From positions 1-25,872 of the forward strand of contig JABLUY010000281.1 in assembly GCA_013306675.1 (NCBI GenBank): a DNA stretch of 25,872 nucleotides. Direction: 5' to 3'. Source of the DNA: Thraustochytrium sp. TN22. Lineage: Eukaryota; Sar; Bigyra; Thraustochytrida; Thraustochytriidae. The position numbers and the translations under genes are program-made. How positions within the stretch are numbered: position 1 is the first letter of the stretch; each line of letters begins with the position of its first letter. Shown here piece by piece: positions 1-22,881 of the stretch. The notes under the pieces are model-generated. The model was not told where the DNA came from. It saw only the letters and a program-made list of their open reading frames with translations, and did not search any database.

Positions 1-50
<50 letters not shown>
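1..50. repeat. CGG trinucleotide tract
   Basis: An uninterrupted CGG/GGC run opens the window and continues, less pure, to about base 113. It lies directly upstream of the first coding start, so it is probably 5' leader or promoter DNA of that gene. The true left edge is outside the window. The same GCG repeat type continues into the first codons and makes a polyalanine stretch. Confidence 0.9.
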
Positions 51-51
<1 letters not shown>

Positions 52-113
52 GGGCGGCGGGCCGAGCGTGCGCGCGGGCGCGGGGCCGGGCCGGCGCGCT
101 CGGCGGCGCGGCC

Positions 114-9420: not shown

Positions 9421-9464
9421 CGAATGGCACGGCACGCTTGTGCGTGGCGATTACCTTGCTCGTG

Positions 9465-9695
9465 CTTGCACTGCCGGGCGCGAGCGTGCGCTTTGTGCTT
9501 GCGCTGCCGGGCGCGAGCGTGCGCTTTGTGCTTGCGCTGCCGGGCGCGAGCGTGCGCTTTGTGCTTGCGCTGCCGGGCGCGAGCGTGCGCTTTGTGCTTG
9601 CGCTGCCGGGCGCGAGCGTGCGCTTTGTGCTTGCGCTGCCGGGCGCGAGCGTGCGCTTTGTGCTTGCGCTGCCGGGCGCGAGCGTGCGCTTTGCG
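9465..9695. repeat. 33-bp minisatellite, 7 units
   Basis: Seven nearly identical 33-bp units start at 9465 and every 33 bases to 9663, followed by a decayed partial unit. Because 33 is a multiple of three and the unit has no stop, every frame across it is open. In the PDE frame (minus) it would encode an 11-residue basic repeat, KHKAHARARQR, but no ATG precedes it in that frame. Confidence 0.95.
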
Positions 9696-9990
9696 CTTTG
9701 TGCTTGTGCTGCTACGCGCGCTCGTGCCTCGAGCGCACTCTGGCCTGCCCTGCCCTTCCTGTAGAGACAAGCCAAAGCTTTCAGCAAGACTTCAGTGATG
9801 ATCACCTCAGACTGCGCATGCTGGCTGGAGTGCAATGCCGGTGCCAGTGCCAGAGTGAACTAGTGAGTACACACATTCGGCGTAACGGATCTGATCTGAC
9901 ATGGTGCAAAATGAAACCCAAAAAAAAGACAAGAAAGCAAAGCGCAAAGGAAAGGAAAATAGGAAAGCAGCCATGCCTTATTCTTGTCAG

Positions 9991-11798: not shown

Positions 11799-12043
11799 TC
11801 AAGCTCGTAGCCCGATAGGCCGCGAGAAGCGGCCCAATGGCGCTTAGCCCGATAAAAAGAGACCCAAAATCAACGGCCCTTTTGAAAAAGGACCTATCGG
11901 GATGTGGAACAAAAAATGAACCGTTTCCTGACCGGGAATCGAACCCGGATCACCCGCGTGACAGGCGGGTATACTAGCCGTTATACGATCAGAAATGCTC
12001 GTGGAGCTGATCGGCTGTGATCGCCGTTCATTTCCTGTTGTTT
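11799..12043 (-). repeat. tRNA-Asp cassette, copy 1
   Basis: A repeat containing a full tRNA-Asp. On the minus strand the order is: a conserved leader of about 48 nt (ending CGATCAGCTCCACGAGCA), the 72-nt tRNA, CGGTT then a T6 run, a hairpin (11875-11894), GGGTCTCTTTTTATCGGGCT, and a second stem with a GGCCGC...GCGGCC core. The same order occurs in three other copies in the window. Beyond the GCGGCC stem, copy 1 shares a further ~30 nt with copy 2 (CTACGAGCTTGATGGCTTC versus GTACGAGCTTCAAGGCTTC). Confidence 0.85.
11924..11995 (-). tRNA. tRNA-Asp (GTC), copy 1
   Basis: A 72-nt cloverleaf: acceptor TTTCTGA/TCAGGAA (one G-U), D stem GTAT/GTAT (Asp-type pairs), anticodon stem CCCGC/GCGGG with loop CTGTCAC (anticodon GTC), variable loop TGAT, T arm CCGGG-TTCGATT-CCCGG. 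The B box GGTTCGATTCC is perfect. CCA is not encoded, and a T6 terminator lies about 7 nt downstream. The discriminator is A73, not the G73 expected for tRNA-Asp. Confidence 0.9.
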
Positions 12044-12368
12044 CATGCGAAGCGCGCGTGAAGTTATGAACAGTAATTTGCTTGGCTTTCGGTTCAGCCG
12101 CGTTCAGCCTGAGATGTTGCAGCAATGTTGGGTTGTTGCTGTGCAGCACTGCCTTGCGAGACCACGGCTTCAACCAGCACCTGCAGCCGCAGGACAGGAG
12201 AAGACCGGAGCTAGCTGCCTCAAAGTGCTCACTGTCAGGCCAGGCAGCGCACGTCGTCGCACAGGAAGCAGGCCAAGAGCTAAGGAAGAGATGGCGGTCA
12301 GGGGCGCCACGACAGTCGGCAAACGATCAACGCGCATGATACCGGGTAGGACCTAGGGCTTGAAGCAA
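12044..12368. other. Spacer between tRNA cassettes 1 and 2
   Basis: About 325 bp upstream (on the minus strand) of tRNA copy 1 and beyond the tail of copy 2. Short open frames have no recognisable domain. I see no gene here. Confidence 0.6.
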
Positions 12369-12519
12369 TGACGCATTGAACCTGAACTTGACACGGAAGC
12401 CTTGAGGCTCGTACACGGATAGGCCGCCGCGAGAAGCGGCGCATTGACGCATTGAACTTGAACTTGACACGGAAGCCTTGAAGCTCGTACGCGGATAGGC
12501 CGCAAGAAGCGGCCCAATG
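12369..12519. repeat. 76-bp tandem duplication in tail of tRNA cassette 2
   Basis: Two similar units, 12369-12444 and 12445-about 12519, both begin TGACGCATTGAAC and run through ACACGGAAGCCTTGA, GCTCGTAC and GGATAGGCCGC to a GAAGCGGC stem. The inner unit joins the body of cassette 2; the outer one repeats the cassette tail. Copies 1, 3 and 4 lack this second tail unit. Confidence 0.85.
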
Positions 12520-12708
12520 CGCGCATAGCCCTATAAAAAAAACCAAAACCAATGGCCCTTTCGAAAGGGCTTGAACAAAAAATAAACCGTTTCCTGACCG
12601 GGAATCGAACCCGGATCACCCGCGTGACAGGCGGGTATACTAGCCGTTATACGATCAGAAATGCTCGTGGAGCTGATCGGCTGTAATCGCCGTTCTTTTC
12701 CTGCTGTT
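12445..12708 (-). repeat. tRNA-Asp cassette, copy 2
   Basis: Same organisation as copy 1 on the minus strand: leader (ACAGCAGGAAAAGAACGGCG...CGATCAGCTCCACGAGCA), identical tRNA, T6 run, hairpin GCCCTTTCGAAAGGGC (12555-12570), a U-rich run, then the GGCCGCTTCTTGCGGCC stem. The hairpin is shorter than in copies 3 and 4 but perfectly paired. Confidence 0.85.
12590..12661 (-). tRNA. tRNA-Asp (GTC), copy 2
   Basis: Identical over all 72 nt to copy 1, with anticodon GTC, perfect B box and A73 discriminator. A T6 run begins 7 nt after the 3' end. It lies about 590 bp from copy 1 on the same strand. Confidence 0.9.
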
Positions 12709-12962
12709 GTGTTGGCCCGTGGCAAACTGTAAAGATCGCTCTGCTGCTGCCTGTCTGGGCGCCGCGCAAGGGAGGTCGTCGGCTGTCTCCGTTCTCTTGG
12801 GCGTTGTAGGTTGGCAAGCAGGCAAGGTCGTTCCCTGCGTGGGGCAGGGTGCGAGTCGCGTTCAAACTGGCGGGCGGGCGGCCAAGCAGCCCGTCGGAAG
12901 AGCAACAGCAATCAGTCAAAGTCGCAGCGCGAGCGCAGCGCCGCCGGGCGAGCTTGGTCGGG

Positions 12963-13559
12963 ATGGAGGCAGCGGCGCGCGGCGCGACGGCGGTCGCTCC
13001 TGTCTCGGCGGCGGGGCCAGGGGCAGGGGCAGGGGCGCCTTCCAAGTACTTCGAGCTGAGGCCGACGGCGCGCCGCGCCGCGTGCAAGCGCTCGCGCGCG
13101 GCCAGCGACAAGGACGGGGCGGCCACGACGGCGAACGAGAAGAAGAGCGGCATCGGCAAGGTGGGCAAGAAGAGAAAGGCGAGAGCCGAGGGCGCGCGGC
13201 CAGGCACGACGGCCTTTGCGTGCGCTCTGCACAGGGCGCTGGCGATGGTGCCCCGGGGCCGCGTTTGGACGTTTGGCGCGGTGGCCGAGACGATGGGGTG
13301 CAGCGCGAGGGAGGCGGCCGCGGAGGTGCGCAAGCTGCGACGAGCGGGCGTCGTGGAGGCGAACCGCGTCGTGGCGGCGAACGGCAAGCTGGACGAGGCG
13401 GGGGCGCTGAGCCGCCAGAGCACTGTCCTCCGGCAGGATGGTGTGGAGTTCGACAGTCAGGGTCGCGTGGCCACGCGATGCCTGGACAAGAGGGCGTCCG
13501 GGAGTGCGCAGGCGGAGGAGCTGCCGCGGCGGCGCGACGTGCGAGCTGAAAGATTGTAA
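12963..13559 (+). CDS. Alkyltransferase-like (ATL) DNA repair protein
   Basis: A 198-aa nuclear-type protein whose C-terminal half (about 82-170) matches the DNA-binding domain of O6-alkylguanine-DNA alkyltransferases: VPRGRVWTFGAVAETMG (helix-turn-helix entry), a recognition-helix segment AREAAAEVRKL, NRVVAANGKL, then LRQDGVEFDSQGRV. In true MGMT the active site reads PCHR; here the aligned residues are EANR (A133, N134), so the alkyl-accepting Cys is absent. ATL proteins of this kind bind alkylated guanine and flag it for nucleotide excision repair. The first ~80 residues are an Ala/Gly/Lys/Arg-rich extension with a possible nuclear signal (KKRKAR). ATG 12963 is the first in-frame ATG. The last ~120 bp of coding sequence and the 3' flank are duplicated downstream at 13661-13870. 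Confidence 0.82.
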   Translation: MEAAARGATAVAPVSAAGPGAGAGAPSKYFELRPTARRAACKRSRAASDKDGAATTANEKKSGIGKVGKKRKARAEGARPGTTAFACALHRALAMVPRGRVWTFGAVAETMGCSAREAAAEVRKLRRAGVVEANRVVAANGKLDEAGALSRQSTVLRQDGVEFDSQGRVATRCLDKRASGSAQAEELPRRRDVRAERL

Positions 13560-13870
13560 TGTAAAGGAGAGAGAGAAGACAGACAAGTCAATCAGGTTGG
13601 TTTTTTTCATTGGGTCTCAGTCAATGCGAGTGTCAAATGTTGTTTGAGGGGTCGACGCACCGGCACGATGGTGTGAAGTTCGACAGCCAGGGTCGCGTGG
13701 CCACGCGATGCCTGGACAAGAGAGCGTCAGGGATTGAGCAGGCGGAGGAGCCGCAGCGGCGGCGCGACGTGCGAGCTGAAAGATCGTAATGTAAAGGAGA
13801 GAGAGAAGACAGACAAGTCAATCAGGTTGGTTCATTGGGTCAGTCAATGCGAGGGTCAAAAGTTGTTTGC
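13431..13870. repeat. 230-bp-period tandem duplication of ATL 3' end
   Basis: Unit 1 (13431-13648) covers the last 43 codons of the ATL gene plus its 3' flank. Unit 2 (13661-13870) repeats it with scattered substitutions and two short deletions (in a T run and at TCTCAG). The short sequence GTCGACGCA occurs at 13651 and again at 13883, flanking unit 2, which suggests microhomology-mediated duplication. Confidence 0.92.
13661..13789 (+). pseudogene. Duplicated 3' fragment of the ATL gene
   Basis: This fragment repeats the coding end of the upstream ATL gene (DGVKFDSQGRVATRCLDKRA...). It keeps the reading frame and ends at TAA 13787-13789, but has no start or catalytic/DNA-binding part of its own. 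It lies between the ATL stop and the stop of the convergent dioxygenase gene, so it probably serves as shared 3' flanking DNA. Confidence 0.75.
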
Positions 13871-16273
13871 TCAAGCCGAGAGGTCGACGCAGAGGACGAT
13901 GCAGGGGTTTTGTGTGGAGACGTTGCGAAAGGCAGCCGGGAGGAGATCGGCAATGTAGACGGCCGAGGTGGTGGTGAGCGTAGTGGAGAAGGCGTCGGCC
14001 TGGCCGTCGGCGGCAAAGGCCTCGTAGAGCAGGTCGCCATGCAGCACCTTGAGGCAGGCTGGCGCGGGCGGGCGTGCGCGCGAGATGCGCTGCAGCGGGT
14101 CGAAGCGGCGCAGATAGAGGCGAAAGGCGGAGCCGCGCGAGACAAGCACCGTGTCCGAGGCGGTGGGCTCGAGCGAGATGAGGTCGCGCCACTCGAGCGG
14201 GTTGATGGTGATGCGGTCGAGCGCGCGCAGGAGGTAGCGATGCGTGGTGGCGCGGTGCAGCGCGGCGAGAACGATGAAGCGTGTGAGTGCGTTGAAGTTG
14301 GTGAAGACGCGACGGTCGCGGTCCTGCTCAAAGAAGGAGAGCAGGCTGTCGACGGTCTGGTCCACGTCCTTGTCCTCGTCGTCGGCGCTGGCGTCAGAGT
14401 CGACGCGCAGGCGCTTACTAGCGCTGTCGATGCGGTCCGCGATGGGCATCATGGCGTCTGCCTTGGCCTTGGCGCAGGCCTGGCGTGCCGAGGTGGCCGA
14501 GTGCACAACCGGGATGATGCGGTCGACGCCGGCGGAGTCGACGTAGGCCATCTGGACGAAGGGCGGCGAGTACAGATGAAGAGTGACGGCGGGCTCGTCC
14601 GTGGCGTTGTGCAGCACGTGCAGGCCGCGAAAGCAGGCGCAGTCGATGTTGTCGCCCTCGTGGAAGACGCGCGTCTCGACGAGGCGGGGCGCCGCGGCGG
14701 ATTTCTCGTAGCGCTTGAGCACGAGCTCGCCGCGCAGCACCTTGACCCAGGAGCAGACGCGCGAGCCGTGCTCGTGAATGGGCGTGCCCTGGTCCTTGTT
14801 CCAGCAGAGCACCATGAGCGAGAAGTCGGCCTCGAGCGCGACGAGCGACCGCGTGTAGCGGAAGGCGTCAAAGTGCACGAACTCGGTCCACTCGCGGTCC
14901 TTGAGCGCCAGGCGCTCGAGCAGTCGCGCGATGGACGACGTCTTCTTGTCGACGGCGTCGCAGCAGCCGCCGTTCGTGTGCTCGTGCTCGCTCTGCAGCG
15001 CGTTTCGGACGGCCGTGTAAAACTCGGGCAGCGCGAGGGGCGCGAGCGACACGTCCGTGGCGTCCGGGGCGTCCGGGGGCGACAGCGCCGACGGCGTCGT
15101 GGTATTGGCGTCGGCGTCGGCGTCGGCATCGGCGGCGTCCATGTCGACGACGTCCTCGTGCGGCAGGGTGGACGAACGCTGTTGCTGCCGGTGCGGTGGA
15201 GCATCCTGCTCGTCGTGACCGCCACAGGCGCGCGAGGCCATCCACGGGTTGCGCGGGATGCGCGCCGTCGCCATGGAGCCCTGGCGGCGCGCGCCCGAAG
15301 CTGCATCGAAGAGCGTGCAGAGCACGTACGGCGGCGCGTACACGTGCAGCGAAACCGAGACCTGATCCGGGTCAGGGTTGCCCATGGAGTGCAGACCCTG
15401 CGTGTTGTTGATGTAGCAGGTCTCCTGCGCAGATAGCGTCAGGTCCCGAATCACCTTGAGCGGCTCGCCGCCGGCCGCGTCCTTGTCAGGCGTCGCGTAG
15501 CGCACCTCGCGCACACGGCCGCGAAGCACTTTCACCCAACATGAGCTCCCGGCGTGGTCGTGGATAGGCGACATCTGGCCTTTGTCCCAGCACAGGATGA
15601 GCACGGTGAATTTGGCGCGCGCGTCCTCGCCGGGCACGTCGTAGCCGACGAGATTGCGTGTGTACGCGCGGTCGTGGAAGCGCAAGTACCGGCCGTACTC
15701 GTGCTCGTCCAGGCGCGCCGCGGCCAGCAGGGCTGAGATGCGCGCGATCTCCGCGTTGCTGTGCACCTCGCCTGCGCGCAGCGTGCGCACCTCGTGGTGC
15801 AGCAGCTCGATCAGGTCGCGGAAGTTCGTGTACAGCCGCAGCCGCGTTGCCTCGTCGCCGGACTTGGTCACCACGCGCGAAACGCTGGCGCCGCGGTCCG
15901 CGTCCGTCACGGACCGCAGGCCCTGGCACAGCACCACGCGCTCGCGCGCGCGCCAATCGCAGACCACGTTGGCCACCTCCGTGCGCAGCACGTGCACCGA
16001 CACGGAGCCCGCCTGCCCGCGCAGCATCACCGTGCCGTCCTCGCCGTCGCCGCCGGAAACGTTGTCGTCTTTGCTGCCGCGCACCACGCGGCTCCACACG
16101 CCGCCGCACCCCTGAACCTCGTACGTCGCCAGCTCCTCGGTCCATGCCACCACCAGCACGGAGACGCCCACCGCCTCGAACACCACGCTCACGCACCCGG
16201 CATTTTCCATCCACGTCTCCGGTGTGAACTCGGCCAGGAACCGCGCCGGGTCTGCGATCGCCAGGGCCCACTG

Positions 16274-16307
<34 letters not shown>

Positions 16308-16393
16308 TCCATCTCCATCGCCGCCGCCGCCGCCGTCGTTGCGGCGTTCGCGGACGGCGCCGTAGCGGCCGTCATGGCCAGGACCTCGGTCAT
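13871..16393 (-). CDS. Fused multi-domain cysteine dioxygenase
   Basis: Predicted mononuclear non-haem iron enzyme that oxidises L-cysteine to cysteine sulfinate with O2. The protein is 840 aa from ATG 16393. Module 1 (about 187-362) has YTRNL (substrate Arg), IHDHAGSSC with H278, H280 and C285, H335, and Y352 in LHVYAPPY. Module 2 (about 455-612) has YTRSL, IHEHGSRVC with H540, H542 and C547, H592, and Y608 in LHLYSPPF. Both therefore keep the three iron ligands and the Cys-Tyr pair that forms the thioether crosslink. A C-terminal region (about 697-840) repeats parts of the fold (FTNFNAL, CLKVLHGDLLYEAF) but lacks the HxH ligands. The N-terminal ~180 residues are of unknown fold. A normal eukaryotic CDO is a single domain of about 200 aa. 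It converges on the ATL gene. Confidence 0.88.
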
Positions 16394-17120
16394 GCCGCCG
16401 CCGCCCTCGCGCGCTGCAGGCAGAGCGCTCGCTCGCGCCACCGTCACGCTGCGCGACTGCGGCCGCGCACGCCGCCGCGCGCCGCCTGCCCGCCTGCCCG
16501 CCTGCCCGCCTGCCTGCCTGCCTGCGCGCCTCTCCGACGCGCGTCCGCGCGTGACCGGTTCTGCTGAGCGGCGGCCCGGCCCAGCCTGCCTCGTAACTTA
16601 GTCAACCAACTACTCCGCCAGTGTCGGTGCCACTGCGCCACTGGCCGCCTCCAGTGGTGGCAGTGCAGCTGCCACTGACTGCAGTTGCCTGCCTGCGGTT
16701 GACTGTGGACAGCCTGACTTGGACAGCGCCGTGGCACAGGCTGGTAGCGCAGAACCGGGCCGGGCCGGACCTGACGCCCGGAGAAAGAAAGATCAGCTGG
16801 CAGCTGAGGACAAAACAAAAATCGAACGAGGGCTCCTGGCAGGAGGGGGGGGAAGCGCTGCGGCTGAGAAGACTGGCCGGCCGCACGAGCGCCAGCCCAA
16901 GACTGCAGTGGCGCTGCCGCGGTTGCGACGCCTGCTCGCTTTCTCTTGGCGCCGCTTCCTTCGCAGCGCCCAAGTCCAGCCCACGCGCCGCCGACGCGGC
17001 CGACGGGCCGACCCAGGGAGCGCCGCAAAGTCGAAGATCAGGACTCGGACTCGGACTCGGACTCGACGCGGCTTGCCTCGACTTCAAGTTGACTCGGAAC
17101 TCATTGAATGCAGCACCCCG
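16394..17120. other. Intergenic region, no supported gene
   Basis: About 730 bp from the dioxygenase start to tRNA cassette 3. It contains CCTGCCTGCCCG-type repeats (16484-16530), CAGTG/CACTG-rich sequence with short inverted matches (16610-16710), and a GGACTC hexamer tract (about 17040-17066) like the one at 2695-2745. It includes the promoter of the minus-strand dioxygenase. Open frames here show no domain. Confidence 0.65.
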
Positions 17121-17347
17121 TTAGGCCGCCGTAAGCGGCCCAATACGCGCTTAGCCCGATAAAAAGAGACCCAATCCCGATGGCCCTTTTGTAAAGGGCC
17201 TATCGGGAATATGAAACAAAAATAAACCGTTTCCTGACCGGGAATCGAACCCGGATCACCCGCGTGACAGGCGGGTATACTAGCCGTTATACGATCAGAA
17301 ATGCTCTTGGAGCTGATCGGCTGTGAGCGCCGTTCTTTTCCTGCTGT
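17121..17347 (-). repeat. tRNA-Asp cassette, copy 3
   Basis: Same element on the minus strand: leader ending CGATCAGCTCCAAGAGCA, tRNA, T5 run, near-perfect long hairpin (17176-17207; CCCGAT/ATCGGG outer and GGCCCTTT/AAAGGGCC inner stems), GGGTCTCTTTTTATCGGGCT and the GCCGC...GCGGC stem. Homology stops soon after that stem (CCTAACGGGG), so the tail seen in copies 1 and 2 is missing. Confidence 0.85.
17230..17301 (-). tRNA. tRNA-Asp (GTC), copy 3
   Basis: Identical over 72 nt to the other copies: GTC anticodon, perfect B box, A73 discriminator. It faces copy 4 head to head, 637 bp away. Confidence 0.9.
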
Positions 17348-17387
17348 TGAGAGTCGAGTGTGCTTGCTAATACAAGTAGCTTCACAC

Positions 17388-17437
17388 GTCCATGGGGAAC
17401 AGCTAGGCGCAGGTCCATGGGGAACAGCTAGGCGCAG
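17388..17437. repeat. 25-bp exact tandem duplication
   Basis: Two identical abutting copies of GTCCATGGGGAACAGCTAGG plus CGCAG at 17388-17412 and 17413-17437, between the two inverted tRNA cassettes. No coding explanation. Confidence 0.95.
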
Positions 17438-17740
17438 GTCCCTGCTCTTGACTCGTCTGCGGCCTGCTGATGGTGGACTTGGGAGGCTCCGCTGCGAATC
17501 GTAATGCTGCATTAAGCTGTCTCGTTGCTGTGATGGTAGTGAATGGAAGATTTCAGCTCTGTGCGCTGGTCGACACGATCTCGAAAGTTCACTACGCTAG
17601 CTGACTGTGAACTCTTAGGCGAGGCCAGGCGAGCAAGCTCGCTCCGCTGGCCATGTACAACAAACCCTCGCACCGCAAACAATGCGCTCTGGTAAATATG
17701 TCGCTCTGGCAAACGGTTTCACGTGCAGACATAATCTCGA

Positions 17741-17792
17741 AGGTCTTGCCTAGCTGGACCAGTCGTAGGTCTTGCCTAGCTGGACCAGTCGT
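17741..17792. repeat. 26-bp exact tandem duplication
   Basis: Two identical abutting copies of AGGTCTTGCCTAGCTGGACC plus AGTCGT at 17741-17766 and 17767-17792. Like the 25-bp duplication it lies in the spacer of the inverted tRNA pair; both look like recent local slippage or repair events. The rest of the spacer (17348-17890) shows no gene. Confidence 0.95.
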
Positions 17793-17890
17793 GTATCCCA
17801 GCCGTGAGGCAGTCTTTCGTCATGAAGAAGAGGCATCTCAAAGGGAACCGGTCACGGATTTTCTAAAAGCTCCCAGAACCAATCGCTTTC

Positions 17891-18126
17891 AACAGCAAGG
17901 AAAAGAACGGCGCTCACAGCCGATCAGCTCCAAGAGCATTTCTGATCGTATAACGGCTAGTATACCCGCCTGTCACGCGGGTGATCCGGGTTCGATTCCC
18001 GGTCAGGAAACGGTTTAATTTTTGTTCCATTCCCGATGGCCCTTTACAAGAGGGCCATCGGGATTGGGTCTCTTTTTATCGGGCTAAGCGCCTATTGGGC
18101 CGTTTCCGGCGGCCTATTCGTGTACG
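17891..18126 (+). repeat. tRNA-Asp cassette, copy 4
   Basis: The only cassette on the + strand. Leader AACAGCAAGGAAAAGAACGG...CGATCAGCTCCAAGAGCA, tRNA, T5 run, perfect hairpin 18032-18062 (CCCGATGGCCCT/AGGGCCATCGGG), GGGTCTCTTTTTATCGGGCT, then a GGCCG...CGGCC stem and GTGTACG. With copy 3 it forms an inverted pair with arms of about 230 bp and a ~540-bp spacer. Confidence 0.88.
17939..18010 (+). tRNA. tRNA-Asp (GTC), copy 4
   Basis: The fourth identical 72-nt tRNA-Asp, anticodon at 17972-17974, A73 discriminator at 18010, and a T5 run at 18019-18023 as terminator. The leader base-pairs with the acceptor side: CGATCAG upstream is the exact reverse complement of CTGATCG at tRNA nt 4-10. Confidence 0.9.
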
Positions 18127-18516
18127 TCGCCCGGACCCGGCCGCGGTGGCGGCGGCGGCGCGGCAGCCACAGCGGCAACAATCATCACGTTGTAAAAGTT
18201 CTTGACTTGCCGAGACTCATGACTTGCCTGGCTTGCCTGGCTTGCTTGCTTGCCAGGTCTGGCCAGCCGCCACCGGGTGGTAAGCTTGTACTGTCAAGGT
18301 AAGGTGTCGCAGGTGCTGCCGAGGTGTTTGCGGTTCCCAGATGCAAGCCCAGCCTCACAGACGCCGCGACTCCCGCGAGCAGAGCAGAATAGACGGCAAC
18401 AACGCAACGCGGCTCGCTCGCAAGGCGTGCTCGCAACGCCGCTCGCTCGCCTCGCTCGCCTCGCTCGCCTCGCTCGCCTCGCTCGCCTCGCTCGCTCGCC
18501 TCGCTCTTGAGGCAAG
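18127..18516. other. Upstream region of the NACHT-WD40 gene
   Basis: About 390 bp with no gene. It holds a GGCTTGCCT-type run (about 18224-18255) and a CGCTCGCCT 9-bp tandem tract (about 18448-18507) ending just before the start codon. These would lie in the promoter and 5' leader of the receptor gene. Confidence 0.65.
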
Positions 18517-21500
18517 ATGCCGGACAACAGGACCGTGGTGCGGGTTCTGTTTGCAGAGGGCGAACAAGATCGTGGCGAGCGAGTCCGTGCTGTGCTTGAA
18601 GAGGGTCTGGATGCAGCGGCGTGGCTCGTGACCACCGAAAGAAGGCCAGCTCGAGTGACGGCCGTGGTGGTGAGCAGGAGTTATGAGGAGGAGGACACGG
18701 AGAGGGCCCGAGAGCTGCAGCAAGCTTTTGAGGCCAGCGGCGCGCTGATCCCAGTCGTGATGGACGAGGACATGCTGCTGCAAAAGGCATGGCGCGGGGC
18801 GCTCGGGCGATACCTAGGGAACGAGCTGTACGTGGACCTGGACGAGGACGAGGATGCCCCCGCGGTGCTGGTTGAGCATGTGGTGGCGTGCACGGCAGGG
18901 GCGTTGCCCATGAGTAGTTGGGACGTCTACCTCTCGTACGAGTCGGAGGCGTACGAGGAGAGCCGAATGGTGGCAATGATGCTGGAAGCTGAACACCGGC
19001 TACGCGTGTGGCTCGAACCGAGAGAGGGCTTTGAGGTGCGCGGCATCAGGCAGGCGCGCGTCTTCGTAGTGCTGGGTACCTTGAGGTACATGGAGCGCGT
19101 GAACCAAAACATGCAGGAGCGGTGCGCGCTGGAGTTCTTGGAGGCCGCGGAGGTCCGGTACGAGCGCACGGTGGTGGGCGCGTTGGAGATGGCGCTGTTG
19201 AACGTGGCATGGGAGGGGCCCTTTCGCCTGCATCTCCAGGAGCAGGTGCCGGTGAATCTATCGCCCGTGACCGAAGCGAGCGTGCGGATGCTGGCCGATG
19301 TGATTTTGCAGCGCACGCTCGCGCCCATGGTGGCGACGCGGCTGTCGCCGCACATGCGGCAGGTGTGGGCCTTCTTGCAGCCGTATTCGTCGGAGGCCTG
19401 GGCGACGCGCAAAGCGACGGGCTTCGCGGCCGGAACTCGACACTGGGTTTTGGACGCCATCGGCGAGTGGTACCGCGGCGAGAGGTCCCGCGTCTTGGTG
19501 CTGCGAGGCGCCATTGGCTCGGGCAAGAGCACGGTGATGGCAGAAGCATGCCGGCGTGGCGGCGCACTCGGGGACGACCAGCATCAGCAGGCACATCCCC
19601 AGGGCATCGCCGGCGCCAACCGCGCGGGGGCGGTCCGCCGCCGCCGTAGCACGGCGATGCTGGCGCGCATGTGGCGGCGGAGCGGCCGCGCGCGGCCTGG
19701 CGTACCGGTGATCGCAGCTCACTTTTTCCGCAGCGACGTGGCTGGGGCCACCTCGGCTCGGGAGGCTCTGCTGAGCATCGCGTGGCAGCTGGCGGAGACG
19801 CTTCCTGGTTTCGCGGACGCCCTCGAGGTGTCGACCAAGGAAGCTGTCCTACGGCAGCCCCTCGTGGACGTCTTCCGCATCCTGCTGGTCGAGCCCCTGC
19901 AGCGGCTCGCGGCGCCGGCGCCGCGGCGCAGCCAAGTGATCGTCTTGGACGGCCTGGACGAATGCACCGACGCCCTGGACCTGATCCACCAAGTCATCGT
20001 ACAACGCTGGACGCGTGAGCTGCCCGCGTGGCTGTGCGTCATGGTCAGCACGCGCCCCGAGGTGGACATCCCGCAGGTTGTCTACAACTTTAGGCCCACC
20101 CTGGTGGAGCTCGACGGTCAGGCAAATCACGATGACATGCGCGCATACATGACGGAGCAGCTGCAGCAGGGGGGGCTCGACACGCACCACGCCGAAGAGC
20201 TCGCGCTGCGCTCGCACGGGGTCTTTCTGTGGGCGAGCTTCATGCCGAGCGTCCTGCACACGATACGCAAACGGGGCATCAAGAGCGTGCCGGAGGGCCT
20301 GGATGCGATGCTGCGTGCGCAGTTCGCGCGCTTCCTGCGGCACATCGAGGCCTTGGGCGGCAAGGACACCTATGACACGGTGCTGGCGCCCATGGTCGTG
20401 GCGCGCGAGCCCTTCAGTGTGCGCTTGCTGCACGAGATGCTGGGGCCGCAACACCGACCGGCGCGCACCAGGCAGATCTTGCGCGCGGCGCGCGCCCTCA
20501 TCTACCAAACAAGCGACGTGATCGGCCTGCGCCACACCTACATGGCGACCTGGCTCCTGGCGAACGACACGGACGATCTTGGCGTCGAGCCTGAGGAGGG
20601 CCACGACAGCCTGAGCGAGGCGCTCCAGAGGTACAGCCGCGAGGCCTTCGCACTGCGCCACGCCGTCTACCACCTCGTCACCTCGGGCCAGCGCGACGAG
20701 GCCCTGCGCCTCCTCGATGACTTTACCTGGGTGCAGCACCTCGTGTCCTCGGGTACTGACCCAGAGCAAAGGCGCGCCATTGTGGCCGGCGTCCTGCGCG
20801 ACTGCCGCGCTGACCGCCTCGACCTGGAGAGCGAGACGCCGGACTTCTTGCGTCAGGCGCTGCGCGCCCTCAGTCTCTCGCCGGACGAGCTGACCAGCCA
20901 GGTCCTGGCGCGCATTGCACTTGATGAGAAGATTGCCCTCCGCCAGGGCGTCGTCCTGCCCAACACACGCTGGCTGCGCCCGCTCAAGACCAGCCTCGCG
21001 CACCCGCGCCAGCCCCTGCTCCACACCATGCCTGGCCACGTGGGCGCGGTCACTTGCGTCGCCTTCTTCACGCCGGAGAAGCTCGTCTCTGGCGGCCAGG
21101 ACGCCACCTTGCGCATCTGGGAGACCGCTGGCGCCTTCGGCCAGCAGCTCGCCGTGCTCGTCGGCCATAACGCGCCCATCACCAGCGTCGCCGCCCTTCC
21201 GCCGGAACAAATCATTTCCGCCTCCGACGACCGGTCCATGCGCATCTGGGACACCTTCTCCTGCGAGACCATCCTGGTCCTCGACAGGATGCACGATGCC
21301 CCCATCACCGCCGTCGACGCGCATCCGCCCTTTGCAGTTTCGGCGGCCGCCGACAATACGCTCCGCGTTTGGGACGCCAACAGCGGCCACCTTCGCCAGC
21401 AGCTCGATGGCCACGCGGATCTCGTGCGCGCCGTCGCAATCTGCGACGGCCGCGTTGCCTCCGGCTCGCGCGACAGGACCGTGCGCCTCTGGTCGCTCCC

Positions 21501-22881
21501 GGACCTCGCTTTTGGGAACGACGGGAACGCCTCCAGCTCCGCCTCCGGCTCCCTCCTCGATTTTCCGGTGCTCGTCCTGGAAGGCCACACCGACGAGGTC
21601 ACCGCAGTCGCCATTCATGACGACAGCCACCACGACGACGCCGCTACCGTCCTCTCCGCCTCGCTCGACCGAACCGTGCGCATCTGGAGTGCCGCGCACG
21701 GAGCCCTGTTGCACACGCTCCGCGTCGACGCCTTCGTCTACGCCGTATCCGCCTCGAACGACCGCATCGTCGCGGGCTGCGCTGATGCCACGCTCCATGT
21801 CTGGGATGCCAGCGCCAAACCCGTCGCCACCCTGCACGGCCACGAGGCCGCCATCCTCGCCGTCCGCGTCTTTCAGGACCGAGTCGCTTCCGCCTCTGCG
21901 GACGCCACGCTGCGCATGTGGAACGCACGCGCCCGCCTTCCGCCGGCGCTGCCTTCGCACCACCTCCCGGTGCGCTGCCTCGCCGCCCACGCCGGCAAGG
22001 TCGTCTCCGGCTCGGACGACACCACCGTACGCGTCTGGGACGGCGCGGACGGGAGCCAGCTCCACGTCCTCTTTGGCCACGCGGGACCGGTCCGAGACGT
22101 CGCCATTTACGAGACCATTGTGGCCTCCGCCTCCGAGGACCGAGAGGTGCGCATTTGGGACGCAATCAAGGGCGACCTCAGGCACACGCTTGCAGGCCAC
22201 ACCGACGTCGTCACGGGCGTCACGCTGCGCGACCACCTCGCCGTCTCCGTTTCCTGCGACTGCACAGTTCGCGTCTGGGACGCCAGGCGCGGCGTGCTGC
22301 TCCACCACTTCGCCGGCTTTTTGGACCACGCCTACGCCGTCGCCGTCTCCTCCAGACCCCCACTCGTGCTCTCCGGCTCCGAGGACCACACGGCGCGCCT
22401 CTGGGATCTTGAGCAGAACCACTTGCGCCACGTCTTCCGAGCCCACACCGGCCCGGTGCGCGCCGTCAAGCTGGCCTGGAACGCCCGCCACGCCATCACC
22501 GCCTCCACTGACTTTTGCATCAAGTTTTGGGACACTGCCACGGGCGACCACCTCTGGGACCTCAAACGTCACGAGGCGAGGGTCACCCATCTCGATCTGC
22601 TCGACGACACCATCCTCCTCAGCCGCGACGCTGACGGCATTGTCCTGCACACGGACGTCGTCGCCAACACCACCCGCCCCGCCGCACTCTCGCTCAGGGA
22701 CAACGTCCACTTGCGTCTTGCAGGAGGCATCGGCTTCACTGCTGACGATGTCATCCTCGACTGGATCTACCTACCCGAGGACCAGGACGCCTACGACAGG
22801 GACGACCACGAGCCGAGCCACCTCGCGCTTGGGGACAGCTCCGGCATGATCCACATTCTCAAGCTTGAACACGCTGCTTGA
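18517..22881 (+). CDS. TIR-like/TIR-like/NACHT/WD40 NLR-type receptor
   Basis: A 1454-aa single-exon STAND ATPase. Residues about 5-125 resemble a TIR domain without its catalytic part (VTAVVVSRSYEEE, then LIPVVMDED). Residues about 133-250 are a second TIR-like module: WDVYLSYESEAYEE (beta-A), RQARVFVVLG (beta-D) and RCALEF, whose E206 sits where NADase TIRs have their catalytic Glu. The NACHT domain has Walker A GAIGSGKS (331-338), Walker B VIVLDGLDEC (474-483) and a sensor-like VMVSTRPE. A helical linker (about 640-830) leads to about 14 WD40 units (from about 834), i.e. two seven-bladed propellers (DATLRIWE, DRTVRLWS, DTTVRVWD and so on). By family knowledge the repeats would sense a ligand, NACHT would oligomerise and the TIR part would signal, as in innate immunity or cell death. 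TIR calls are moderate; NACHT and WD40 are firm. Confidence 0.9.
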   Translation: MPDNRTVVRVLFAEGEQDRGERVRAVLEEGLDAAAWLVTTERRPARVTAVVVSRSYEEEDTERARELQQAFEASGALIPVVMDEDMLLQKAWRGALGRYLGNELYVDLDEDEDAPAVLVEHVVACTAGALPMSSWDVYLSYESEAYEESRMVAMMLEAEHRLRVWLEPREGFEVRGIRQARVFVVLGTLRYMERVNQNMQERCALEFLEAAEVRYERTVVGALEMALLNVAWEGPFRLHLQEQVPVNLSPVTEASVRMLADVILQRTLAPMVATRLSPHMRQVWAFLQPYSSEAWATRKATGFAAGTRHWVLDAIGEWYRGERSRVLVLRGAIGSGKSTVMAEACRRGGALGDDQHQQAHPQGIAGANRAGAVRRRRSTAMLARMWRRSGRARPGVPVIAAHFFRSDVAGATSAREALLSIAWQLAETLPGFADALEVSTKEAVLRQPLVDVFRILLVEPLQRLAAPAPRRSQVIVLDGLDECTDALDLIHQVIVQRWTRELPAWLCVMVSTRPEVDIPQVVYNFRPTLVELDGQANHDDMRAYMTEQLQQGGLDTHHAEELALRSHGVFLWASFMPSVLHTIRKRGIKSVPEGLDAMLRAQFARFLRHIEALGGKDTYDTVLAPMVVAREPFSVRLLHEMLGPQHRPARTRQILRAARALIYQTSDVIGLRHTYMATWLLANDTDDLGVEPEEGHDSLSEALQRYSREAFALRHAVYHLVTSGQRDEALRLLDDFTWVQHLVSSGTDPEQRRAIVAGVLRDCRADRLDLESETPDFLRQALRALSLSPDELTSQVLARIALDEKIALRQGVVLPNTRWLRPLKTSLAHPRQPLLHTMPGHVGAVTCVAFFTPEKLVSGGQDATLRIWETAGAFGQQLAVLVGHNAPITSVAALPPEQIISASDDRSMRIWDTFSCETILVLDRMHDAPITAVDAHPPFAVSAAADNTLRVWDANSGHLRQQLDGHADLVRAVAICDGRVASGSRDRTVRLWSLPDLAFGNDGNASSSASGSLLDFPVLVLEGHTDEVTAVAIHDDSHHDDAATVLSASLDRTVRIWSAAHGALLHTLRVDAFVYAVSASNDRIVAGCADATLHVWDASAKPVATLHGHEAAILAVRVFQDRVASASADATLRMWNARARLPPALPSHHLPVRCLAAHAGKVVSGSDDTTVRVWDGADGSQLHVLFGHAGPVRDVAIYETIVASASEDREVRIWDAIKGDLRHTLAGHTDVVTGVTLRDHLAVSVSCDCTVRVWDARRGVLLHHFAGFLDHAYAVAVSSRPPLVLSGSEDHTARLWDLEQNHLRHVFRAHTGPVRAVKLAWNARHAITASTDFCIKFWDTATGDHLWDLKRHEARVTHLDLLDDTILLSRDADGIVLHTDVVANTTRPAALSLRDNVHLRLAGGIGFTADDVILDWIYLPEDQDAYDRDDHEPSHLALGDSSGMIHILKLEHAA

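Follow-up and report, generated by a model that had tools for sequence, protein, structure and literature searches.

The window analysed here, that is, the whole stretch of 25,872 nucleotides (nt) comprising bases 1-25872 of contig C201 (43,524 bases) of Thraustochytrium sp. TN22, carries a cluster of four tRNA-Asp(GUC) genes, each embedded in a longer repeated cassette with a leader before the tRNA and a tail after it. Copies 1 to 3 are read from the minus strand (11923..11995, 12589..12661 and 17229..17301, respectively) and copy 4 from the plus strand (17939..18011). All four were found with ARAGORN and Rfam, score 55.4 bits each against the Rfam tRNA model and are identical at 71/71 bases, in agreement with the four identical tRNAs of a first-pass annotation of this DNA. 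Each has an intact cloverleaf with a B box and a T-run soon after it, as is characteristic of tRNA genes transcribed by RNA polymerase III (Pol III). When the whole assembly (37.9 Mb, 453 contigs) was searched with the cassette and, separately, with its tRNA and with its tail, the matches were confined to this cluster of ~6 kb, as expected from the local duplication that had been suggested earlier; the tail-alone search missed copy 2 and returned two extra weak matches, which are the same hairpins in reverse. A mitochondrial contig carries its own tRNA-Asp, and the four copies are, as far as found, the entire nuclear tRNA-Asp gene set. The Asp family as such is ordinary, being a local tRNA gene family, and several other isoacceptors (e.g. 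Ala-AGC, Val, Leu, Glu, Gln, Pro) likewise occur as local groups of 2-4 genes, oriented either alike or in a mixed manner. What seems less ordinary is that the apparent beginning and end of the Asp transcription units are visible, and that they expose a 3' motif common with the 5S ribosomal RNA (5S) genes.

The four copies share a block that reaches from about -48 to about +105 and consists of a leader of ~48 nt, the tRNA and a tail of ~105 nt; this bears out the larger repeat with conserved leader and tail described in the first pass. Immediately before the CAACA motif at which the block begins, any two copies mismatch at 54-71% of positions; the corresponding values are 0-9% for the leader, 0% for the tRNA, 6-17% around the first T-run, 4-30% in the first tail hairpin and second T-run, 8-19% in the segment of the second hairpin, and 36-68% beyond the tail. 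On the 5' side, similarity extends to -47 to -55, with CAACAG at -45 to -49, and on the 3' side the edge falls at +103 to +112, at or within ~15 nt of a GGCCTA, in four of the six copy pairs. Between copies 3 and 4, identity within the block is 95%, whereas the sequences immediately flanking it differ by 61% and 68%, so that a larger duplication followed by neutral drift cannot explain their sharp edges. Either the block alone would have been copied, or conversion would keep the block alone alike. Likewise, three of the four Ala-AGC copies start at CAACA and finish at a GGYCTA-type motif. Similarity between copies ceases at CAACA on the 5' side in Asp, Ala-AGC, part of Gly-GCC and one pair labelled Cys/SeC, and the 5' edge lies elsewhere in other families, e.g. 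Glu (genes within 150-250 nt of one another, such as Asn, Met and Ile, were disregarded here, since overlapping DNA aligned with itself).

The leader and the tail

The flanks of the Asp genes were compared with those of other nuclear tRNA genes, which were gathered with a covariance-model search and a pattern of a B box plus a T-run (74 matches, vs five for the reversed control). The comparison set consists of 80 ARAGORN nuclear tRNA genes in 34 B-box families and is a lower bound, both searches being selective. Families were used rather than anticodons, because the anticodon names given by ARAGORN are open to doubt where some of the genes with introns are concerned (Pyl, Stop, SeC); in the B-box grouping, which replaced an earlier one that had merged unlike tRNAs, the label of the Thr family comes from an internal match and Gly-GCC appears as two families.

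Across this set the pattern of a plant-like TATA/CAA promoter was found, with a TATA-like 8-mer (at least 6/8 positions matched) 28-30 nt before CAACA in 19/80 genes and 13/34 families, while eight slid offsets gave 0-2 genes and 500 shuffles a mean of 0.31 and a maximum of 4. CAACA itself is present within 140 nt upstream of 29/80 genes. Furthermore, a TATA-like box, scored by a simple pattern, lies at -27 to -33 from +1 in 10/15 5S genes, and the single U6 gene has one at -32 from its model-matched start. The TATA-CAACA spacing, together with the distances in the 5S and U6 genes, suggests CAACA as the start site of Pol III and makes transcription of the leader probable. In the Asp copies the leader, delimited by the similarity edge, CAACAG and pair counts, spans 11996..12042 (copy 1, minus strand, with CAACAG at -45), 12662..12709 (copy 2, minus), 17302..17349 (copy 3, minus) and 17890..17938 (copy 4, plus). 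That of copy 1 contains the stems CGGC/GCCG and GCUC/GAGC; the Asp leader stems are invariant, and the differences between copies fall at unpaired bases. Genome-wide, the 40-nt stretch preceding the tRNA outperforms its shuffles in folding (z < -1.5) in 34% of the genes, with a family mean of -0.62 +/- 0.19, vs 6-9% at the same threshold for other upstream windows and 6-16% for downstream windows. The cleanest compensatory signal seen is that of the leader of an intron-bearing five-copy tRNA family (L057/L058), in which the structure predicted from the same alignment has 13 pairs, two two-sided changes and no broken cells; in other families, two-sided leader changes are confined to poorly alignable leaders or accompanied by broken cells. 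Palindromes resembling TTAGGCCTAA are found repeatedly between genes, including in the DNA upstream of tRNA genes (e.g. L047, L060, L064).

Downstream of the tRNA, all four copies have the T5-T6 run noted in the first pass, a T6 in copies 1 and 2 (11911..11916 and 12577..12582, both minus) and a T5 in copies 3 and 4 (17218..17222, minus; 18019..18023, plus), which is taken as the primary terminator. It is followed by a first hairpin, predicted from folding and from pair counts or, in copy 2, alignment: in copy 1, for which the G-U noted before is confirmed, the inner stem lies at 11875..11894 (minus), in copy 2 the hairpin lies at 12555..12570 (minus), and in copies 3 and 4 it is a long double stem (17176..17207, minus; 18032..18062, plus). 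Next comes a second, candidate backup T-run, located within GGTCTCTTTTT in copies 1, 3 and 4 (11854..11864, minus; 17161..17171, minus; 18067..18077, plus) and formed by a T8 in copy 2 (12535..12542, minus). A second hairpin with GGCCTA at its end closes the tail (copy 1, 11816..11834, minus; copy 2, 12496..12514, minus; copy 3, 17122..17140, minus; copy 4, 18098..18116, plus). The order of stem and then T-run is kept in all copies, the last run being T5 or T8; a T4 lies ~5-6 nt past the stem in copies 1 and 2, and a T5 9-10 nt past the outer stem in copies 3 and 4.

The tail folds better than dinucleotide shuffles in 4/4 copies (z of -3.11, -4.74, -5.14 and -5.86). The first-pass annotation had further described the tail hairpin as covarying, with pairing kept between copies, and had read this as selection on structure. 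However, two-sided changes were found at 0/28 pairs of the named helices (tail and leader stems of the four Asp copies) and at 0/21 pairs of the structure that RNAalifold itself proposes, in a test that rests on four sequences and has low power, so neither covariation nor, by this route, selection on the tail structure is upheld. In the named helices 94.3% of 106 cells are paired, and the five further pair types are all one-sided. The inner hairpin can form in 4/4 copies, with the register shifted by one base in copy 2. The outer stem, CCCGAT/ATCGGG, is intact only in copies 3 and 4, where it had been reported; two of its six pairs are broken in copy 1, and its 5' arm is deleted in copy 2. Since copies 3 and 4 are 95% identical, they amount to nearly one observation for this stem.

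Stems before backup T-runs were also assessed genome-wide, which gave a family mean z of -0.70 +/- 0.22, compared with -0.22 +/- 0.28 and -0.11 +/- 0.16 for the two controls. Both tRNA-Arg(ACG) genes (L050, on C397, at 1409- and 1792+), which are in opposite orientation and 99.7% alike up to the 250-nt comparison limit, are followed by a perfect 7-bp hairpin, GGTCTATTTTGATAGACC, directly joined to a T10. In a tRNA-Met copy (L054, on C68, 1937-2009) there is no T-run before +52; a strong hairpin with a B-box-like GGTTCGA in it precedes that point, and then comes a T21.

The GGYCTA motif and other features of the genome

Pol III genes such as those of tRNAs and 5S are usually described as having internal promoters and ending at a bare T-run. 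In the thraustochytrid tRNA genes, GGTCTA is the top-ranked 6-mer in the region +8..+98 after exclusion of words containing five consecutive A or T and of those present in fewer than five families. GGYCTA occurs in this region in 16/34 families, vs 3.4% of 232 control windows. At +20..+37 it is found in 16/80 tRNA genes and 12/34 families, vs 0.72 expected, as well as in 7/15 5S genes, vs ~0.14 expected; the 5S genes played no role in the discovery of the motif, and since several of their flanks are related they are not 15 independent trials (the sample is 15 of 16 listed loci, C99:9592, with 63 bits, having been left out). In the range +12..75, which does not depend on that choice of positions, GGYCTA is present in 20/80 tRNA genes (shuffle mean 2.4, maximum 7), in 7/15 5S genes (0.4, maximum 2) and in 1/15 mitochondrial tRNA genes, the latter being 15 of the 20 ARAGORN tRNAs on mitochondrial contigs. 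The motif is found in both orientations at similar positions. Asp copies 1-4 have a common GGCCTA match at +87 to +101. By eye, no GGYCTA was seen in the 120 nt shown for the one U6 gene. A positioned 3' motif of tRNA and 5S genes is not described in the titles and abstract beginnings listed by searches of open-licence papers on this subject, which is weak evidence of absence. The 5S genes form a tandem group on C116 (L092) and single loci on other contigs, several of which have in common a flank like TCTTTTTGCC...TAGRCC. A longer candidate, GGYCTATCRACAGC as one joint motif, was rejected, as it has two genomic matches, both in the C375 cluster and equal in number to those of the reversed control.

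Elsewhere in the window, tandem repeats with a 33-bp period (D3) lie at 9429-9731, and a 173-nt direct duplication (94%) at 13430-13832 is located at and past the 3' end of an O6-methylguanine methyltransferase-like frame. A single frame at 13871-16597 encodes a protein with two stretches matching cysteine dioxygenase type I, and a long frame at 18511-22881 joins an NPHP3_N-like domain to many WD40 repeats. The nuclear genome is GC-rich and has a size of 38 Mb. C318 and C363 are mitochondrial contigs. In the AT-rich mitochondrial genome, cox1 on C318 has 0 TTA among 58 leucine codons, and three other mitochondrial genes on this contig have 1-3 TTA each in stop-to-stop frames; the near-absence of TTA is in keeping with the Thraustochytrium mitochondrial code (NCBI table 23) and, taken with the size and GC-richness of the nuclear genome, points to a probable thraustochytrid.

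The cassette as a candidate Pol III transcription unit

On balance, the cassette is probably one complete Pol III transcription unit, present in four locally made copies and equipped with a T5/T6 stop, a stem with a backup T-run, and a Pol III-associated 3' element. Such a unit would have spread by local direct and inverted copying, with likeness kept mainly over the block, perhaps through copying or gene conversion limited to it. Pol III would start at CAACA, ~29 nt past the TATA-like box, and produce a precursor with a 5' leader of ~48 nt bearing two short stems. Transcription would end mostly at the T5/T6 just past the tRNA, and leaking polymerases would encounter the first hairpin and then the backup run of T4-T8, which may act as a fail-safe stop. 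This step is supported in principle by work in yeast, where, according to the excerpted account, a hairpin 0 or 7 nt from a weak T-tract helps Pol III release, and one at 18 nt does not (PMC9278858). The tail also carries forms of the GGYCTA-type element that is found at +20 to +37 behind some tRNA and 5S genes; this element is a probable DNA factor site, and the predicted factor could act in termination, in recycling of Pol III or in the formation of a boundary. The suggestion that the flanks are functional thus finds support in the coincidence of the block with the putative Pol III start on one side and, in 4/6 pairs, with a Pol III-associated motif on the other; covariation lends it none.

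A wider proposal can be put forward tentatively, with the expectation that it may well fail. In Pol III genes of the thraustochytrid type, two classes or more (tRNA and 5S among them) might have in common a lineage-specific downstream DNA element, GGYCTA-like and located at about +28; a putative factor bound to it would set the 3' boundary and recycle Pol III. TATA, CAACA and this element would then together enclose internally promoted genes in an external frame of three parts, and the element would also help to define the block that is preserved by local copying and conversion. If true, a positioned 3' motif common to tRNA and 5S genes would represent an added control element. In addition, the TATA-CAACA spacing could aid the building of Pol III expression cassettes in these protists.

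A number of observations weigh against the transcription unit or its wider extension. On the upstream side, 51/80 genes are without CAACA within 140 nt, the TATA-like boxes of the Asp copies are weak (scores of 5-7 of 8, spaced 26-30 nt from CAACA), and the invariance of the Asp leader stems means that they yield no covariation evidence. For the proposed fail-safe stop, the gap of 9-10 nt between stem and T5 in copies 3 and 4 falls between the working 7 nt and the failing 18 nt of yeast, the genome-wide excess of stems before T-runs is modest, with error bars that touch one control, and the two segments of copy 2 reach z of only -1.32 and -0.89 in that test. As for the element, the range +20..+37 was picked after both the tRNA and the 5S data had been seen, 22/34 tRNA families are without GGYCTA in this range, and among the Asp genes copy 3 alone has GGYCTA/TAGRCC inside it. 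Genes that have the motif do not tend to have shorter first T-runs (p = 0.21 when tested by gene and 0.24 when tested by family). This is at odds with simple compensation, and the idea that the motif makes up for weak first T-runs was rejected. The longer word GGYCYCTTTTT has 80 occurrences, vs 41 for the reversed control, of which five lie in sense orientation directly behind a Pol III gene identified here, with one further match 3' of tRNA-Asn on the other strand; given these numbers it was not used to define the core of the element. Finally, the copies of many tRNA families cease to resemble each other at the T-run or close to it.

Part of this evidence would also be accounted for by passive local duplication, in which the block is simply the unit that was recently copied or converted and the tail itself serves no function. 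All copies are local, copies 3 and 4 are near-identical, and the helices have no two-sided changes. Copy pairs 1-2 and 2-3 stay similar past GGCCTA, to +131 and +133, which weighs against the complete unit as well, and two 63-nt repeats, 76 nt apart, are present where the tail of copy 2 has its outer end (repeat family D16; 12365..12503, minus). Against this account, which is rather doubtful, the 5' edge coincides with CAACA, the tail motif is enriched 3' of unrelated tRNA families and of 5S genes, and copies 1 and 2 both retain a stem and a backup T-run despite being 25% different in the segment of the first hairpin. Somewhat more credible, if still short of probable, is the possibility that the tail is a DNA-level boundary or factor site only, its hairpins being a by-product of inverted GGCC motifs and RNA structure being irrelevant. 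The occurrence of the motif in both orientations would then be expected, and most of the tail does lie beyond the primary terminator, whereas the stem excess before backup T-runs, modest as it is, and the preservation of the backup run in 4/4 tails count against it.

Two further explanations assign the block a different identity. A dicistronic gene, in which the tail hairpin is processed into a stable small RNA, would agree with the strong folding of the tail and is nonetheless very improbable, as the T5/T6 precedes the hairpin in every copy, the hairpin sequence differs among copies, and nothing in the window except the tRNAs matches Rfam at the gathering score. The prospects of a tRNA-headed mobile element, either SINE-like or arising from RNA-templated copying, are slighter still. 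RNA-templated copying would place the 5' edge at the putative transcription start, where it is found, and in copy 1 the two flanks share a direct match of 7 nt (shuffle P 0.03). The longest direct match of the other three Asp units, in contrast, is 4 nt (P 0.98, 0.91 and 0.88), so that no convincing target-site duplication flanks any of the four. Among the nine units included in this test (four Asp, three Ala, two Gly), two have P near 0.03, namely Asp copy 1 and an Ala copy with 8 GC-rich nt, which is unremarkable over nine trials. Moreover, the tRNA is an essential one, and no source of it was found besides the block. Because only four nuclear copies were found, all within ~6 kb, the dispersed mobile element considered in the first pass is supported neither by copy number nor by target duplications.

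If the cassette is instead a complete Pol III unit, its parts can be related to several known systems. In humans, NF1/TFIIIC1 acts at Pol III terminator regions as a downstream factor promoting termination and reinitiation, and the putative factor proposed here would have a similar downstream role, with a motif that differs from the human one. With the retroelements of Dictyostelids that target tRNA genes, the cassette shares the presence of particular sequence at ~50 bp on the upstream side and ~100 bp on the downstream side of tRNA genes (PMC5006619); unlike these elements, the Asp cassette has no dispersed copy, and no retroelement gene was noticed in the seven window frames scanned with Pfam. 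The cluster is closer to the homogeneous tRNA gene clusters outlined in another partial source, with genes of the same isoacceptor close together in parallel or opposite orientation (PMC2888827), but the Asp spacing is partly above the 1000-nt limit used there, and the common block exceeds the tRNA. The succession of a short first T-tract and then RNA structure and a second T-tract corresponds to the hairpin-assisted and secondary Pol III termination of yeast, in which, as stated in the same excerpt as above, read-through regions fold less than average, while the Asp tails fold strongly in 4/4 copies (PMC9278858). With respect to plant nuclear tRNA genes, the excerpted account does not mention a 3' GGYCTA motif, and its CAA motif is usually nearer to the tRNA, within 10 nt, compared with the longer CAACA that here often lies ~20-50 nt before it; both arrangements have a TATA-like box and a CAA start motif upstream, and a poly(T) with a backup poly(T) downstream (PMC11700998).

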